Origin: Marinobacter sp. ATCH36
Lineage (GTDB): Bacteria; Pseudomonadota; Gammaproteobacteria; Pseudomonadales; Oleiphilaceae
Direction: 5' to 3'
DNA length: 64,000 bases
NCBI RefSeq assembly: GCF_023555055.1
Contig: NZ_JAMJPL010000001.1
Span: 1,178,001-1,242,000 of the forward strand
How positions within the stretch are numbered: position 1 is the first letter of the stretch; the number at the start of each line of letters is the position of its first letter. The notes beneath the pieces were generated by a model. That model was given only the letters and a program-made list of their open reading frames with translations, had not been told where the DNA came from and did not search any database. Below, one piece after another: positions 3,982 to 58,146 of this stretch. The translations under genes and the position numbers were made by a program.

Positions 3982-6105
3982 GTGGATCTTAATCCCGTAA
4001 AGAAAACCTTTGAACTCGGCGGCAAGACCGTCACCATCGAAACCGGCCGTATTGCACGCCAGGCTACCGGCTCCGTTCTGGTTACCATGGACGACATCTC
4101 GGTACTCGGTACTGTGGTTGCCGCGAAGGAAGCCAAGCCGGGCCAGCCGTTCTTCCCGCTGACCGTTAATTACTTCGAGAAGACTTACGCCGTGGGCAAA
4201 ATTCCGGGTGGCTTCTTCAAGCGTGAAGGCCGTCCGTCCGAGAAAGAAACCCTGACCTCGCGCCTGATCGACCGTCCGATTCGTCCGCTGTTTCCCAAAG
4301 GGTTCATGAACGAAACCCAGGTTATCCTGACAGTAATGTCTTCCGACAAGAATCAGGATCCGGATATTGCCGGTATGCTGGCGGCTTCTGCAGCCCTGGC
4401 TATCTCAGGCGTACCGTTTGACGGCCCGATTGGCGCATCCAGGGTTGCGTACACCAACGAGCGTGGCTACTTCCTGAACCCCACCTTCGAAGAGCTGGAA
4501 ACCTCACTGCTCGACATGGTGGTTGCCGGTACCCAGGACGCGGTTCTGATGGTTGAATCCGAAGCCAAGGGCCTGTCCGAAGACCAGATGCTGGGTGCTG
4601 TTCTGTTTGGCCACCAGGAAATGCAGACAGCGGTTACCGCCATCAAGGAACTTGCAGATGAAGTCGGCAAGCCGCGCTGGGATTGGCAGCCAGAGCCGGA
4701 GAATACCGAGCTGCTGAATGCTGTCAATGCCGAAGCCGCCGCGGGCATCGAAGAAGCCTACGGTATCCGCGACAAGATGGAGCGTTATGCACGTCTGAGC
4801 GAGATCAAGAGCGCGCTGGTCGAAAAACTGGCCGGCGAAGAGGAAGGCCAGCCTTCCAAAGATGACGTCAAGAAGTACTTCGGTATAGTTGAGAAAACCA
4901 TCGTTCGTAATCAGGTTCTTGACGGCAAGCCGCGCATTGACGGCCGTGATAACAAGACCGTTCGCCCCATCGAGGTTGAAGTTGGTGTTCTGCCCAGTGT
5001 TCATGGTTCAGCCCTGTTCACCCGCGGTGAGACCCAGGCTATTGTGACCACTACCCTGGGTACAGCGCGCGACATGCAGATCATCGATGCTCTGGAAGGC
5101 GAGAAAAAGGATCCGTTCCTGTTCCACTACAACTTCCCACCGTACTGCGTCGGCGAAGCTGGCCGTGTCGGTACCCCGGGCCGTCGTGAAATTGGCCACG
5201 GTCGTCTGGCGAAACGTGGTGTGGCTGCGGTTATGCCTTCCATGGAAGAATTCCCGTACACCATCCGTGCGGTTTCCGAGATCACTGAATCCAACGGCTC
5301 CAGCTCCATGGCGTCTGTCTGTGGTTCCAGCCTGGCGCTGATGGATGCCGGTGTGCCCATCAAGGCACCGGTTGCCGGTATCGCCATGGGTCTGGTCAAG
5401 GAAGGCGAGAAGTTCGCGGTTCTGACCGACATCCTGGGTGACGAAGATCACCTCGGCGACATGGACTTCAAGGTGGCCGGTACCTCTGACGGTATCACGG
5501 CGCTGCAGATGGACATCAAGATCCAGGGCATCACCGACGAGATCATGGAAATTGCTCTCGACCAGGCCAATGCTGCACGTATGCACATCCTGGGTGAAAT
5601 GGCGAAAGTGATTTCCGCGCCGCGCAAAGAGCTTTCAAGCCGTGCGCCGAGCATCACCTCCATCAAGATCAATCCGGAGAAGATCCGCGACGTGATCGGC
5701 AAGGGCGGCTCGATGATTCGCTCAATCTGTGACGAGACCGGTGCTTCCATTGATCTGGATGACGACGGCAACGTGAAGATTTATGCCGACAATCTGGATG
5801 CCGCCAAGGCTGCGATGAAGAAGGTGATGGAAATCACTGCGGAAATCGAGGTTGGTGCGATCTACAGCGGTCGTGTTGAGCGCATCGTGGACTTCGGTGC
5901 CTTCGTCAACATCCTGCCTGGCAAAGATGGCCTGGTACACATCTCTCAGATCTCCGAGCGTCGCATTGAGAACGTCACTGACGAACTCAGCGAAGGCCAG
6001 GAAGTTCTGGTGAAGGTGCTGGACGTAGACAACCGTGGCCGCGTGAAGCTGTCCATGAAAGAAGTGAAGGAAGGCGAGCAGCCCACGGACCTCTCCGCGC
6101 TGTAA
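3982..6105 (+). CDS. pnp: Polyribonucleotide nucleotidyltransferase (PNPase)
   Basis: PNPase is the phosphorolytic 3'-5' exoribonuclease of the degradosome. The product has two RNase PH-like domains separated by the alpha-helical domain, then a KH domain with the IGKGG loop and an S1 domain ([18 protein letters not shown]) near the C-terminus, in the standard order. I choose the GTG at 3982 (707 residues): a perfect AGGAG lies five bases upstream and the following residues ([15 protein letters not shown]) match the family start. The in-frame ATGs at 3937 and 3964 lack comparable ribosome binding sites. A strong terminator follows. Confidence 0.97.
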
Positions 6106-6183: not shown

Positions 6184-6295
6184 GCGTCCATCGCAAACAG
6201 GCTTTCAAAACACGCCACGTAAATACGTCCCTGTAGGGCTCGGTCGCGCCATCCCTGGCGCTCCACGGTTTTGCAAGCCTGTTCGCGATAGACGC
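6184..6295. repeat. Cloverleaf-like intergenic repeat, copy 1
   Basis: Outer arms of 28 bases (6184-6211 and 6268-6295) pair with three mismatches. They enclose a 56-base core starting ACGCC and ending CCACG. Inside the core are two small hairpins: TACG-TCCC-TGTA, and GCGCCA-TCCC-TGGCGC. The core is almost identical to copies 2 and 3, whereas the arms are different. It lies between the convergent pnp and hydrolase genes and could act as a bidirectional 3'-end structure; that role is inferred. Confidence 0.85.
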
Positions 6296-28563: not shown

Positions 28564-28668
28564 CGAGGCCGGTCAGGTTATTCAGAACACGCCCGTGGAT
28601 ACGTCCCTGTAGGGCTCGGTCGCGCCATCCCTGGCGCTCCACGGTTCTGATTAACCTGACCTGCCTCG
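28564..28668. repeat. Cloverleaf-like intergenic repeat, copy 2 (left of hipBA)
   Basis: Arms of 25 bases (28564-28588 and 28644-28668, two mismatches) enclose a 55-base core with the same two TCCC-loop hairpins as copy 1. The arms do not match those of copy 1. The full unit 28562-28676 differs from 30522-30636 at only three positions, so hipBA lies between direct repeats. It is also the only structure that could end the aceEF transcript. The rest of the 309-base gap (28517-28825) holds the hipBA control region. Confidence 0.88.
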
Positions 28669-30523: not shown

Positions 30524-30628
30524 CGAGGCCGGTCAGGTTATTCAGAACACGCCCGTGGATACGTCCCTGTAGGGCTCGGTCGCGCCATCCCTGGCGCTTC
30601 ACGGTTCTGACTAACCTGACCAGCCTCG
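30524..30628. repeat. Cloverleaf-like intergenic repeat, copy 3 (right of hipBA)
   Basis: Arms at 30524-30548 and 30604-30628 enclose the conserved core. Only three substitutions distinguish this unit from copy 2. It begins about 45 bases after the hipA stop. The remaining part of the 450-base gap 30480-30929 holds about 235 bases in which I see no convincing gene or signal, and then the porin terminator. Confidence 0.88.
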
Positions 30629-54101: not shown

Positions 54102-55574
54102 ATGAACACCAAGCCGAAAGTCAGCCAGGCGGAGCTGGCGGAAAAGTTCCGCGCGTTTATAGACCCGGACTTTGTCATCACCGATGACGAAACCATGAAG
54201 CCCTATGAGTGCGACGGCATGTCCATGTACTGCGAGATGCCAATGCTCGTGGTGCTGCCGGAAACCGCCCAGCAGGTGCAGCGGATCATGCGCATCTGCA
54301 ACGAGCATGAGGTGCCCGTGGTGGCCCGCGGTGCCGGAACCGGACTGAGCGCCGGTGCCATGCCTCACAAAGAAGGCGTGGTATTGTCGCTGGCCAAGTT
54401 CAACCGCATTCTGGACATTGACCCGCTGGCGCGGACGGCGCGGCTGCAACCGGGTGTTCGTAACCTCGCCATCAGCGAAGAGGCTGCCCAGTTTGGCCTT
54501 TACTACGGGCCTGACCCCTCATCCCAGATTGCCTGTACCATCGGTGGCAACGTGGCGGAAAACTCCGGGGGTGTGCATTGCCTCAAGTATGGTTTGACGG
54601 TTCACAATATCCTCAGCGTGGAGATGATCACCGCTGAGGGTGAGCGGGTAACCATCGGCAGCGACGCCCTGGATGTGTGTGGCATGGACCTGCTGGCGCT
54701 GATGACCGGCTCTGAAGGCTTGCTGGGCATCGTGACTGAAGTAAAGGTGAAACTGCTACCCAAACCGGAAGTAGCCCAGGTGGTGATGGCCGGCTTCGAC
54801 AGCGTTCAGAAAGCCGGCGATGCGGTCGGTGGTATTATTTCCCGCGGTATTATTCCAGGCGGACTGGAAATGATGGACGGCCACGCCATCATTGCCGCCG
54901 ATGATTTCGCACAGGCGGGCTACCCCAGGGAAGCCAAGGCGTTGTTGTTGTGCGAAGTAGACGGCACCGAAGAGGAAGTCCACGAGCATATCGCCCAGGC
55001 AGAAGCATTGTTCCGCGAGCTGGGTGCCACCTCGGTAAAAACTTCCCAGAGCGAAGAAGAGCGGGCCCTGCTGTGGAAAGGCCGCAAGTCCGCCTTTCCG
55101 GCGGTAGGCCGTATCTCACCCGATTATTACTGCATGGACGGCACGATCCCGCGCCGGTATCTGGCCCATGTGCTGCTGGAAATGGAAAAAATGTCCGAAG
55201 AATTCGGGCTGCGAGTGGCGAATGTGTTCCACGCCGGTGATGGTAATCTGCACCCCCTGATCCTGTTCGATGCCAATGTTGCTGGCGAGTTTGAGCGCAC
55301 TGAAGCCTTCGGTGGCCGCATCCTCAACCTCTGTGTGGAAGTAGGTGGATGCATTACCGGCGAGCACGGCGTGGGTGTGGAAAAAATTCGCCAGATGGCG
55401 GTGCAGTTCAACGATGAGGAGCTGCAGCAGTTCCACGACGTAAAGGCCGCCTTCGACCCGGCCGGTATCCTCAATCCCGGCAAGGGCGTTCCTGCCCTTC
55501 GCTTCTGCCAGGAGTACCGATCTCTGGAACACAAACAACACAAGCACAACACGGTGGACGCTGCCCATGGCTGA
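54102..55574 (+). CDS. glcD: Glycolate oxidase subunit GlcD (FAD)
   Basis: This is the catalytic flavoprotein of the three-subunit glycolate dehydrogenase that oxidises glycolate to glyoxylate and passes electrons to the quinone pool. The 490-residue product has an FAD_binding_4 (PCMH) domain with VARGAGTGLSAGAMPHKEGV, IGGNVAENSGGVHCLKYGLT and MTGSEGLLGIVTEVKVKLLP. The FAD-oxidase C-terminal domain has NVFHAGDGNLHPLI and GCITGEHGVGVEK. It overlaps glcE by eight bases. Confidence 0.95.
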   Translation: MNTKPKVSQAELAEKFRAFIDPDFVITDDETMKPYECDGMSMYCEMPMLVVLPETAQQVQRIMRICNEHEVPVVARGAGTGLSAGAMPHKEGVVLSLAKFNRILDIDPLARTARLQPGVRNLAISEEAAQFGLYYGPDPSSQIACTIGGNVAENSGGVHCLKYGLTVHNILSVEMITAEGERVTIGSDALDVCGMDLLALMTGSEGLLGIVTEVKVKLLPKPEVAQVVMAGFDSVQKAGDAVGGIISRGIIPGGLEMMDGHAIIAADDFAQAGYPREAKALLLCEVDGTEEEVHEHIAQAEALFRELGATSVKTSQSEEERALLWKGRKSAFPAVGRISPDYYCMDGTIPRRYLAHVLLEMEKMSEEFGLRVANVFHAGDGNLHPLILFDANVAGEFERTEAFGGRILNLCVEVGGCITGEHGVGVEKIRQMAVQFNDEELQQFHDVKAAFDPAGILNPGKGVPALRFCQEYRSLEHKQHKHNTVDAAHG

Positions 55575-56631
55575 TATCTCGCAAAAGCTGAAGGAGCAGA
55601 TTCTCCAGGCTCAACAAGTGGGCCAGAAACTCAATATCGAAGGCGGCGGCACCAAAGCCTTTATGGGCCGGGCCGCAGATACCGATGCAGGCACACTGAA
55701 ACTGGGTGAACACACCGGAATCGTCGAATACCATCCGGTAGAGCTCGTACTTACCGCCCGCGCCGGCACCCCACTGGCGGATATCGAAGCCACCCTTGCC
55801 GAAGAAGGCCAGTGCCTCCACTTCGAGCCGCCCAGATTCGGTGAGGGTTCCACCCTGGGCGGCACCCTGGCCTGTAACCTCTCCGGCCCGGCAAGACCCT
55901 GGTCCGGCTCGGTAAGGGACCAGGTGCTGGGCATTCGCCTTCTAAACGGTAAGGGTGAACACCTGCGCTTTGGCGGTCAGGTAATGAAAAACGTGGCCGG
56001 CTATGACACCTCCCGGCTGCAGGCAGGCGCCATGGGCACCCTGGGCGCCATCACCGAAATCAGCCTCAAAGTAATGCCCAAACCAGCCACGTCCCTGACC
56101 CTGGTGCAGGACATGGCCCTGGACGACGTCATCCAATACATGAACAGCCGCGCCAAAGAACCCAAACCCATCACCGGCGCTGCCTGGGTAGACGGTAAAG
56201 TGTACCTGCGCCTGGCCGGCGCCAGGTCCGCCGTGGAAGCCACCGCCGAAAAGTGGTCCGGTGAAGTGATGGAGCAGGGGGACGATTTCTGGCGACAGCT
56301 GCAGCATATGCAGCATGAATTTTTTGCCGGTGACCAACCGCTGTGGCGCTTCTCTGTCGGCTCTACCGCCACCAACCCGGACCTGGACGGCCCCTGGCTG
56401 ATCGACTGGGCCGGCTCCCAACGCTGGTACCGCGGCGAAGCCGACATAACCCGACTGGAATCCCTGGCCCAGCGAGCGGGTGGCCAGGTAAGCCTGTTCC
56501 GCGGCGGCGACCGCACGGATGAAGTAATGCATCACCAGCCCCGGGCCTTGAAAGAAATCCAGCGCCGGCTGAAACATTCGTTCGACCCCGACGGTATTTT
56601 CAACCCCGGGCGTTTATATAGCTGGCTATGA
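55567..56631 (+). CDS. glcE: Glycolate oxidase subunit GlcE (FAD-binding)
   Basis: This is the second flavin subunit. The 354-residue product has an FAD_binding_4 domain with EGGGTKAFMGR near the N-terminus, PPRFGEGSTLGGTLACNLSG and FGGQVMKNVAGYDTSRLQAG (about 135-155). A shorter C-terminal part ends SFDPDGIFNPGRLY. The start overlaps glcD by eight bases. Unlike the usual tight glcE-glcF spacing, 306 bases separate it from glcF, and these contain two large opposed hairpin repeats. Confidence 0.94.
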   Translation: MADISQKLKEQILQAQQVGQKLNIEGGGTKAFMGRAADTDAGTLKLGEHTGIVEYHPVELVLTARAGTPLADIEATLAEEGQCLHFEPPRFGEGSTLGGTLACNLSGPARPWSGSVRDQVLGIRLLNGKGEHLRFGGQVMKNVAGYDTSRLQAGAMGTLGAITEISLKVMPKPATSLTLVQDMALDDVIQYMNSRAKEPKPITGAAWVDGKVYLRLAGARSAVEATAEKWSGEVMEQGDDFWRQLQHMQHEFFAGDQPLWRFSVGSTATNPDLDGPWLIDWAGSQRWYRGEADITRLESLAQRAGGQVSLFRGGDRTDEVMHHQPRALKEIQRRLKHSFDPDGIFNPGRLYSWL

Positions 56632-56651
56632 GAAAAACAACGGAGTTGGCA

Positions 56652-56762
56652 GAGCGGCTGGGACACCCCTTCCGAAACACGCTCCTTCGGCACATCCCTG
56701 TGACGCTTGAGCTCCGCCATCCATGGCTACGCACAGTTTCGGAAGGGGTGTCCCAGCCGCTC
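56652..56762. repeat. Cloverleaf-like intergenic repeat, copy 4 (glcE-glcF gap)
   Basis: The 27-base arms (56652-56678 and 56736-56762) are perfectly complementary. The 57-base core starts ACGCTC and contains CACA-TCCC-TGTG and GCCA-TCCA-TGGC hairpins. The core clearly relates to copies 1 to 3 but is diverged; the arms are unrelated in sequence apart from the inner GAAAC end. It begins 21 bases after the glcE stop. Confidence 0.88.
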
Positions 56763-56803
56763 CGCGTCGAAACTCCAGTCAGGCGGCCAGCACAAAATTT
56801 GAA

Positions 56804-56908
56804 AGCGAGCGGGGTAGGGGTATCTGAAATTGTGCGGAGCCATGGATGGCGGAGCCCAAGCGCCCATGGAGGGCTTGAGCGTATTTCAGGTACCCCTACC
56901 CGCTCGCT
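56804..56908. repeat. Cloverleaf-like intergenic repeat, copy 5 (glcE-glcF gap, opposite orientation)
   Basis: Arms (56804-56830 and 56883-56908, one bulge and few mismatches) enclose a 52-base core. Read on the minus strand, the core starts ACGCTC and ends TGGCTCCGCACA, matching copy 4, and holds GCCA-TCCA-TGGC. Copies 4 and 5 therefore face each other with different arms. Together they fill most of the 306-base gap between glcE and glcF; the rest holds only the glcF ribosome binding region. Confidence 0.86.
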
Positions 56909-56937
56909 AAAGCACCGAGTTTAATAGCAGGTAACCC

Positions 56938-58146
56938 ATGCAAACCAATCTAGTACAGCAATTCGCCAACACAGCAGAAGGCCAGGAAGCCGAGTCCATC
57001 CTGCGAGCCTGCGTACACTGCGGCTTCTGCACCGCTACCTGCCCGACGTACCAGGAACTGAACGACGAACGCGATGGCCCCCGCGGCCGCATCTACCTGA
57101 TGAAAATGTTCCTGGAAGGCGAAGAAGTCACCGAAAAATCCCGCGAACACCTCGACCGCTGCCTCACCTGCCGCAGCTGCGAAACCACCTGTCCCTCCGG
57201 CGTCAAGTATGGCCGCCTGATCGACATCAGCCGTGGCCTGATGGAACAGGAAATGCCCCGGCCACCCCAGCAAAGGTGGATGCGCTGGTCACTGGCCCGC
57301 GTACTTCCCAATCGGCGGTTGTTTGGCCTGCTGCTGCGTATGGGCCAGCTCTTTCGCCCGGTACTGCCAGGAAAACTGCGTACCAAGGTGCCACCCAGAA
57401 AACAGGCCAGCCCCTGGCCGACAGCAAGCCACGAACGCATTGTGCTTGCCCTGGCCGGTTGCGTTCAGCCATCCGCCACGCCGAACACCAACGCCGCCGC
57501 TGCCCGGGTGCTCGACAGACTTGGTATCAGCATGGTGGAAGCGCCTGAAGCCGGCTGTTGCGGCGCCGTGAATCATCACCTGTCTGAACACGAAAAAGCC
57601 CTGGAAGCCATGCGCCGCAACATCGACGCCTGGTGGCCCGCCATCGAGGCCGGCGCCGAAGCCATCGTCATGACGGCCTCGGGCTGCGGCGCCATGGTTC
57701 AGGAATACGGCCACCTGCTGCGGGACGATCCGGTCTATGCCGTCAAGGCGCGGAAAGTCAGCGACATGAGTGTCGACCTGGGTGCCTTCCTGCTCAAACA
57801 GGATCTGGAAAAATTGAACGTCCCCAAAACCACCGGAAAGGTTGCGTTCCACTGCCCCTGCACCCTTCAGCATGCCATGCAGCAAAGCGGCGTAGTGGAC
57901 CAGGTGTTGCGCAAGGCCGGTATAGAACTGGCGGAAACCAAAGAAAAGCACTTGTGTTGCGGTTCTGCCGGTACCTACTCCATTCTTCAGCCGGAACTCA
58001 GCCAGCGCCTGCTGCTGAATAAGCTCAAGGCCCTGACCGTGGATAATCCGGACAGGATTGTCACCGCCAACATTGGTTGCCAGATGCACCTGGAAACCAG
58101 GGCGAAAGTACCGGTTCAGCACTGGATTGAATTGCTGGACGCCTGA
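56938..58146 (+). CDS. glcF: Glycolate oxidase iron-sulfur subunit GlcF
   Basis: This is the electron-transfer subunit. The 402-residue product has two [4Fe-4S] motifs, CVHCGFCTATCP (Cys25, 28, 31, 35) and CLTCRSCETTCP (Cys75, 78, 81, 85), followed by two CCG-type domains with AGCCGAVNHHL and HLCCGSAGTY. All ligands are present. It probably docks GlcD/GlcE to the membrane quinone pool. Two opposed hairpin repeats precede it, so its expression may differ from glcDE; a G-rich site (CAGGTAAC) serves as ribosome binding site. Confidence 0.95.
   Translation: MQTNLVQQFANTAEGQEAESILRACVHCGFCTATCPTYQELNDERDGPRGRIYLMKMFLEGEEVTEKSREHLDRCLTCRSCETTCPSGVKYGRLIDISRGLMEQEMPRPPQQRWMRWSLARVLPNRRLFGLLLRMGQLFRPVLPGKLRTKVPPRKQASPWPTASHERIVLALAGCVQPSATPNTNAAAARVLDRLGISMVEAPEAGCCGAVNHHLSEHEKALEAMRRNIDAWWPAIEAGAEAIVMTASGCGAMVQEYGHLLRDDPVYAVKARKVSDMSVDLGAFLLKQDLEKLNVPKTTGKVAFHCPCTLQHAMQQSGVVDQVLRKAGIELAETKEKHLCCGSAGTYSILQPELSQRLLLNKLKALTVDNPDRIVTANIGCQMHLETRAKVPVQHWIELLDA

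Follow-up and report, generated by a model that had tools for sequence, protein, structure and literature searches.

The window, as we call the whole stretch of 64,000 nucleotides that was analysed, contains the genes glcD, glcE and glcF (Table 1). The gene names are those of the first-pass annotation, and a short match to the annotated E. coli glcF backs the name of the neighbour; best matches to glcF across the genus are 55–95% identical, and the named records closest in GlcF place the genus as Marinobacter. The arrangement described in that annotation was found again: glcD and glcE overlap by 8 nt, glcE and glcF are split by a gap of 306 nt (56632–56937), and the gap holds two opposed hairpins with different arms, copy 4 on the minus strand and copy 5 on the plus strand, whose stems are unlike each other. 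Its copy numbering also fits, since a covariance model of the element (R1, described below) finds full-length copies at 6190, 28567, 30527, 56657 and 56809 in the window, beside one further weak partial match at 5227.

Table 1. Coordinates of genes and element features in the window
Feature	Position	Strand	Basis or remark
Element copy	6190–6289	−	R1 74.5 bits
Element copy	28567–28665	−	R1 75.9 bits
Element copy	30527–30625	−	R1 78.2 bits
glcD	54102–55574		8-nt overlap with glcE
glcE	55567–56631	+	ORF and translation; upstream gene of the gap
Copy 4	56649–56765	−	RF01731 35.0 bits; R1 106.6 bits
Copy 4 loop 2, AGGGAT	56694–56699	−	sequence reading
Copy 4 loop 1, ATGGAT	56719–56724	−	sequence reading
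17-nt imperfect direct repeat around copy 5, left half	56790–56806	+	by eye
Copy 5	56804–56908	+	RF01731 26.3 bits at 56798–56914; R1 88.7 bits
Copy 5 loop 1, ATGGAT (CsrA-type ANGGAN)	56842–56847	+	sequence reading
Copy 5 loop 2, ATGGAG (CsrA-type ANGGAN)	56866–56871	+	sequence reading
17-nt imperfect direct repeat around copy 5, right half	56912–56928	+	by eye
AGCAGG, likely glcF ribosome site	56926–56931	+	comparison of gaps
glcF	56938–58146	+	ORF; downstream gene of the gap

Structure of the glcE–glcF gap

Copy 4 has a stem of 30 bp (56649–56678 paired with 56736–56765, 97% complementary) around a 57-nt core. The strand carrying its GGA loops is the minus strand, and is hence antisense within the glc transcript. 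The stem of copy 5, which is sense within that transcript, is formed by 56804–56830 and 56883–56908 with one indel in the outer part; the inner stem (56812–56830 and 56883–56901) is 95% complementary and encloses a core of 52 nt (56831–56882). Predicted folding energies were −78.5 kcal/mol for copy 4 (z −9.0) and −66.0 kcal/mol for copy 5 (z −8.3), and none of 200 shuffled sequences folded as well in either case. The two cores had been proposed to pair with each other and so to allow alternative folds. They are indeed complementary, at 90% over 40 nt, and could adopt an alternative fold, which is however not the preferred one: forced pairing of core 4 with core 5 gave −140.8 kcal/mol, compared with −157.7 kcal/mol for two local hairpins, about 17 kcal/mol worse.

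Copy 5 lies between the halves of an imperfect direct repeat of 17 nt. Insertion with duplication of the target and deletion between the repeats would leave the same picture here. One relative with copy 4 alone (G046) has a single stretch resembling the 17-nt motif beside copy 5. Pattern scans of the gap detected no promoter and no terminator (loops of 3–8 nt only were allowed in the terminator scan), and reading of the sequence showed no T tract after either stem. The AGCAGG directly 5′ of glcF is preserved in 14 of the 16 gaps that are filled.

To follow the gap through the genus, the locus was read in 50 of 61 genomes, one of which (G058) lacked the glcE end, leaving 49; from a second set of 80 loci, 59 were read, two of them without the glcE end. 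Among the 49 genomes parsed, our own included, the gap measured only 2–21 nt in 31. It was filled by one plus-strand element in 11, by a pair in four (own included) and by copy 4 only in one, and the remaining two gaps, of 66–69 nt, were without a complete element. A tree of glcF with 56 rows placed every carrier of the element in one group of 28, with support (91/69) that is under the usual mark; rows outside this group were all without the element, and inside it six were empty and one was degenerate. The element is also missing in close sisters of carriers, for example in G016 beside G007, so this site is dispensable. This pattern is most simply read as an ancestral short gap into which elements came in one part of the genus, some of them being lost afterwards. 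The tree represents a single gene with signs of recombination, in which repeated gains and losses are not separable. In one genome (G021, locus L122) glcF is near those of G039 and G059 and the gap element is like that of G051, a mismatch that suggests recombination at the locus. In M. caseinilyticus (L283) the gap is taken up by short repeats of the ACGACGGTGATA type, in an array unrelated to the element. We considered that a stem arm might be an inverted copy of the target flank; this was rejected, as the stems are absent from empty glcE–glcF sites.

A dispersed repeat with a conserved core

The one meaningful lead in an Rfam search was RF01731 (TwoAYGGAY), although the scores of copies 4 and 5 (Table 1) were below its cut-off of 43 bits and nothing in the window reached a gathering score. 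Genome-wide there were 59 full-length matches at E values up to 10, all 59 covering model positions 1–168, and a single one was above the cut-off, with 43.3 bits. In 14 control genomes only one match was obtained, below the cut-off. The repeat is thus a relative of the TwoAYGGAY family, and we do not file it as a member. Matches of the hairpins to miRNA-named families and to isrG scored far under the cut-offs, and we put them down to chance likeness to a long stem.

The R1 model was made from 58 copies of our own genome, which match it by construction because it was built from them; one of the 59 copies, at C24:214044, is truncated and was dropped from the alignment. Searching the 4.29-Mb genome with R1 yielded 126 matches, or 123 distinct copies after removal of three reverse-strand duplicates. 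In the genus sample, which includes our own genome, 60 of 61 genomes had a match. The counts per genome are of matches listed and so are lower bounds, at least 67 for the top genomes; the lowest were 0, 3, 3, 5 and 6, the genome with 6 being 62% complete. R1 matches were found in 35 of 185 genomes of a sample of the class Gammaproteobacteria and in 13 of 200 genomes of a phylum sample (own genome included in both), all 13 inside Gammaproteobacteria; both samples were searched with stricter filters, by which weak matches are lost. Plasmid and phage collections contained no match to the element. A literature search of openly licensed PubMed Central papers, including excerpts of PMC4679880, found no description of the repeat.

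Several local groupings of copies were seen. Ten copies are clustered within some 56 kb of contig C11 of our own genome (about 527–583 kb), and in another genome of the order six model matches stand head-to-tail with a spacing of about 227 nt (G423:C1:94422–95646). Within the window, the copies at 28567–28665 and 30527–30625, 2 kb apart, are near-identical including the stem, and their outer flanks are largely unrelated. Their likeness reads as a recent copying or conversion event, which outlines a unit of about 120 nt and some further similarity on the 5′ side.

The alignment of 58 copies defines the anatomy of the element. The inner 22 positions of the stem each show Watson–Crick pairing of no less than 93%; the figure is 71% at position 28 and 10–43% farther out. 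All 22 modelled stem pairs vary, 21 of them with double changes, and 98.4% of stem cells pair. The covariation score of the whole structure was 0.648, compared with 0.156 in shuffled alignments, none of 500 being as high, and with the partner shifted by one column, the share of paired cells across that structure fell from 95.2% to 46–49%. A search for a distal helix past the stem produced only a weak signal (best z 3.9 among 45 offsets), and the helix was discarded.

The core forms two hairpins. Hairpin 1 has the form GCC-ANGGAN-GGC with a lower part that is Watson–Crick or G-A rich, and hairpin 2 the form CAC-ANGGAN-GTG, together with covarying forms. Loop 1 reads ANGGAN in all 58 copies and loop 2 in 54; among the four exceptions the N is deleted in three, and one loop is AGAGAC. 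The strict consensus AYGGAY is found in 51 first loops and 29 second loops of the 58. The two GGA triplets are spaced by 20–22 nt in every copy. Cores contain a mean of 3.97 GGA (the loops count toward this figure) against 1.59 in single-base shuffles, and a mean of 0.10 TCC. The same plan is kept by 22 matches from other families of the class, with few deviant loops and one truncated copy. Thus the stem is free in sequence and kept in pairing, and the core is nearly fixed.

REP sequences have a fixed motif directly beside the hairpin, on its 5′ side. Among 129 copies of the present element no well-positioned six-mer was found 5′ of the stem; the positioned ones were 3′, namely CACCAA about 4 nt from the stem (21 copies, 6.3 expected) and CAGGCT about 16 nt from it (17 copies, 1.9 expected).

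Strand asymmetry, placement and conservation

If the element had a role only as double-stranded DNA, mutations in a single arm should leave G-U and A-C oppositions equally often. On the GGA strand, G-U exceeded A-C by 25 to 2 in 57 copies of our own genome (copy 5 was excluded for its stem indel). In relatives the ratio was 40:8 in 73 distinct copies picked by core-only BLAST; for this, 80 copies were chosen among about 150 matches listed, and seven with duplicate stems were dropped. When both sets were merged and repeats likely to stem from the same event were removed, 49 G-U and 10 A-C oppositions remained (p 2.7e-7), with 28 other mismatches. The ratio was 16:5 for copies sense to their neighbours, 12:2 for antisense, 23:1 for convergent and 13:2 for divergent contexts, these being raw counts with gene calls from an in-house ORF script. 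Because the excess holds in every context, the GGA-loop strand appears to be kept whatever the direction of the neighbouring gene, and neighbouring mRNAs cannot explain everything. The asymmetry speaks for an RNA or for a mobile intermediate in single-stranded form. Part of it could be imitated by mutation or repair with a strand bias.

The element is extragenic: no copy lay inside a script-called gene, either among 59 of our own genome or among 73 of relatives. Copies are oriented at random to the genes beside them (32 sense and 31 antisense, by in-house ORF calls), so that about half of the copies would hide their loops from the mRNA of the neighbouring gene. By eye, the 3′ side seemed nearer to genes in our own genome, an impression that the medians in relatives (57 nt on the 5′ side, 82 nt on the 3′ side) did not bear out.

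Neighbouring copies showed a strict polarity. Among the 123 copies, all 17 neighbouring pairs less than 300 nt apart were ordered minus-plus, with their 5′ sides facing, for which the chance would be 6e-11 were orders random. An eighteenth close pair, with a truncated partner, has the same order, and pairs at 300–3000 nt have mixed orders (8, 7 and 4). In relatives within the genus 12 of 12 close pairs read minus-plus, some of them counted at a single site in several species. The rule fails outside the genus: a tandem pair (L144) stands beside a minus-plus pair (L154), and the head-to-tail row of six and a minus-minus-plus set (G257) also break it. The number of close pairs was not clearly raised, 17 compared with a crude random mean of 11.1 and maximum of 21 (from a null with a limit of 400 nt and an intergenic share guessed at 12%), and so polarity alone stands out. 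At two loci (L215 and L161) the spacer between paired elements contains a nested long inverted repeat (CGTAGGTCGGATTA type).

The copy at 28567 occupies the same site in seven of 12 relatives examined and is missing in five. On average it differs by 6.5% (28 pairs, eight genomes). The gene next to it differs by 28.6% at third codon positions, and its two 60-nt flanks by 48% and 36%. The cores of orthologous glcE–glcF copies of equal core length differ by 0–4 nt, at third-position distances of 0.20–0.54. Stem changes were mostly two-sided in two orthologue groups (139 two-sided and 36 one-sided changes in the first, 38 and 12 in the second), and numbered 45 two-sided and 59 one-sided in the group of our own genome, where the one-sided excess is partly due to the indel in the outer stem of copy 5. 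These pairwise counts are not independent, and spurious short-stem parses in G010 and G036 were left out of them.

Interpretation and comparison with known systems

The finding between glcE and glcF is confirmed, and the gap is one of many sites taken by an RNA-like repeat that is dispersed and widespread. The reading that we prefer, with belief and doubt about evenly balanced, is that the hairpins belong to a dispersed extragenic RNA element related to TwoAYGGAY that probably binds CsrA. The element would work as an RNA made from the GGA strand, CsrA/RsmA would be the protein that binds its paired loops, and transcribed copies might act as CsrA sinks or as local docking sites. A function as RNA is preferred mainly because of the GGA-strand asymmetry. 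Within the glc transcript, copy 5 alone would present its loops, copy 4 being antisense.

The case for CsrA comes from the loops. ANGGAN hexaloops are reviewed as sites for RsmE, and CsrA as bridging sites 10–63 nt apart, best at more than 18 nt (excerpts of PMC7652899). The element has an ANGGAN hexaloop on a short hairpin and a spacing that one dimer can bridge; the near-invariant A and GGA of the loops, and their spacing, agree with the CsrA/RsmE sites covered in the available part of that review (PMC7652899). Our own genome has one PF02599 (CsrA) match. In the class sample CsrA was found in all 27 high-quality genomes bearing the element and in 119 of 135 without it, a weak association (p 0.046, ancestry ignored) given that 146 of the 162 high-quality genomes have CsrA anyway; three incomplete element-bearing genomes gave no CsrA match. 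A bolder version, which we advance as a tentative possibility, is a distributed, spreading CsrA sponge, in which more than 100 two-site docking hairpins under selection as RNA would set CsrA availability. On the sponge reading, an orphan structured RNA would have multiplied into these extragenic copies, and availability would be set by transcription of scattered loci and not by one or two dedicated sRNAs.

The strongest competitor, which we regard as unlikely but in need of serious weighing, is a selfish or mobile extragenic repeat of the REP kind, with a mobility enzyme that recognises a folded single strand (ssDNA or RNA) and an incidental likeness to CsrA sites. It would account for the high copy number, extragenic position and random orientation, for the differences in presence at glcE–glcF, for the near-identical copies 2 kb apart in largely unrelated flanks, and for the polarity of close pairs and the direct repeat around copy 5. 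Against it, the resident copy at 28567 is far better conserved than its flanks, and the RAYT-type Y1 transposase domain is missing in 27 of the 61 genus genomes, ten of which have at least 60 copies. RAYT, the only transposase type searched, was accordingly rejected as the mobiliser: PF01797 is found in 34 of the 61 genomes, and its presence does not track copy number. One genome of the genus (G004) has 22 Y1 transposase matches and just seven elements, the opposite of what mobilisation by RAYT would lead one to expect.

BIMEs are known for roles at the DNA level, in replication, nucleoid structure and supercoiling. A comparable element, in which the folded strand or a cruciform mattered for such processes, would suit the orientation-neutral, extragenic placement and the long palindromic stems; the strand-specific G-U/A-C asymmetry and the confinement of the loops to the GGA strand would be unexpected if both strands acted, and we consider this explanation improbable.

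Equally hard to sustain is a device local to the glc genes, in which the hairpins process, stabilise or attenuate the glcDE–glcF mRNA and so lower or uncouple glcF expression, as the first-pass annotation had suggested. The elements do separate genes that are 2–21 nt apart in most genomes parsed, and a near-perfect RNA stem of 30 bp, such as that of copy 4, is a plausible target of RNase III or block to an exonuclease. However, the same family occupies more than 100 other places in random orientation, close sisters of carriers lack it, and the AGCAGG before glcF is kept in nearly all filled gaps. The gap also lacks promoter and terminator patterns (within the loop range scanned) and a T tract, and the alternative core–core fold is disfavoured. 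A role in glcF expression is possible, but the sequence patterns give it no advantage over a role that is neutral or exerted in trans; if glcF is affected at all, the effect is probably secondary. A bidirectional intrinsic terminator is highly improbable and was rejected at glcE–glcF, where the T tract and (within the loop range scanned) the terminator pattern are lacking. Strong stems do stand between genes, five of 58 copies, read in the antisense direction, have at least five T among the 9 nt that follow the stem, and a T-rich stretch follows the 28567 copy in that direction in several species, but in the sense direction none of the 58 has such a run.

CsrA binding had been proposed earlier, in 2014, reportedly by Gardner and Eldai; the dispersal, the strand selection and the pair polarity seem to be new. 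Compared with REP, BIME and REPIN sequences, the element is likewise extragenic, palindromic and multicopy, with singlets, inverted doublets and compensatory stem changes (as in the excerpted account PMC3116915). In a REPIN the ends are conserved and the middle varies, whereas the element has a conserved core and a variable outer stem; a REP unit measures 20–60 nt and a unit of the element about 110 nt or more; and, unlike REPINs, the element showed no tie to RAYT-type transposases in the 61 genus genomes. With sRNAs of the CsrB/RsmZ type it shares ANGGAN hexaloop hairpins at a spacing fit for one CsrA dimer (PMC7652899, in part). It differs from them in having two loops per unit, many dispersed units, no promoter pattern in the gap and no sign of a dedicated sRNA gene.

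The closest likeness is to TwoAYGGAY (RF01731), with a full-length structural match, two GGA hairpin loops, occurrence in gamma-Proteobacteria, a G-A-rich interior in the stem of hairpin 1 and a poorly conserved outer stem. Excerpts of the published accounts describe that family as having tandem G-A and, in the 2014 proposal, as binding CsrA (PMC4333381); as probably an RNA, probably not cis-regulatory and of unknown function, from human gut, gamma-Proteobacteria and Clostridiales, in 2010 (PMC2864571); and as gaining two covarying pairs in Rfam 15 (PMC11701678). The element differs in that the window copies fall below the gathering score and in that its loops are ANGGAN and not strictly AYGGAY. 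Unlike the family as described in the available parts of these accounts (PMC4333381, PMC2864571, PMC11701678), it is a dispersed repeat of more than 100 copies. A close relative of TwoAYGGAY that occurs as a dispersed, high-copy repeat in a culturable genus, marked by selection on one strand and by strict polarity of its pairs, makes the CsrA hypothesis directly testable and, if that hypothesis is true, a bacterial repeat family would be linked to a global RNA regulator.
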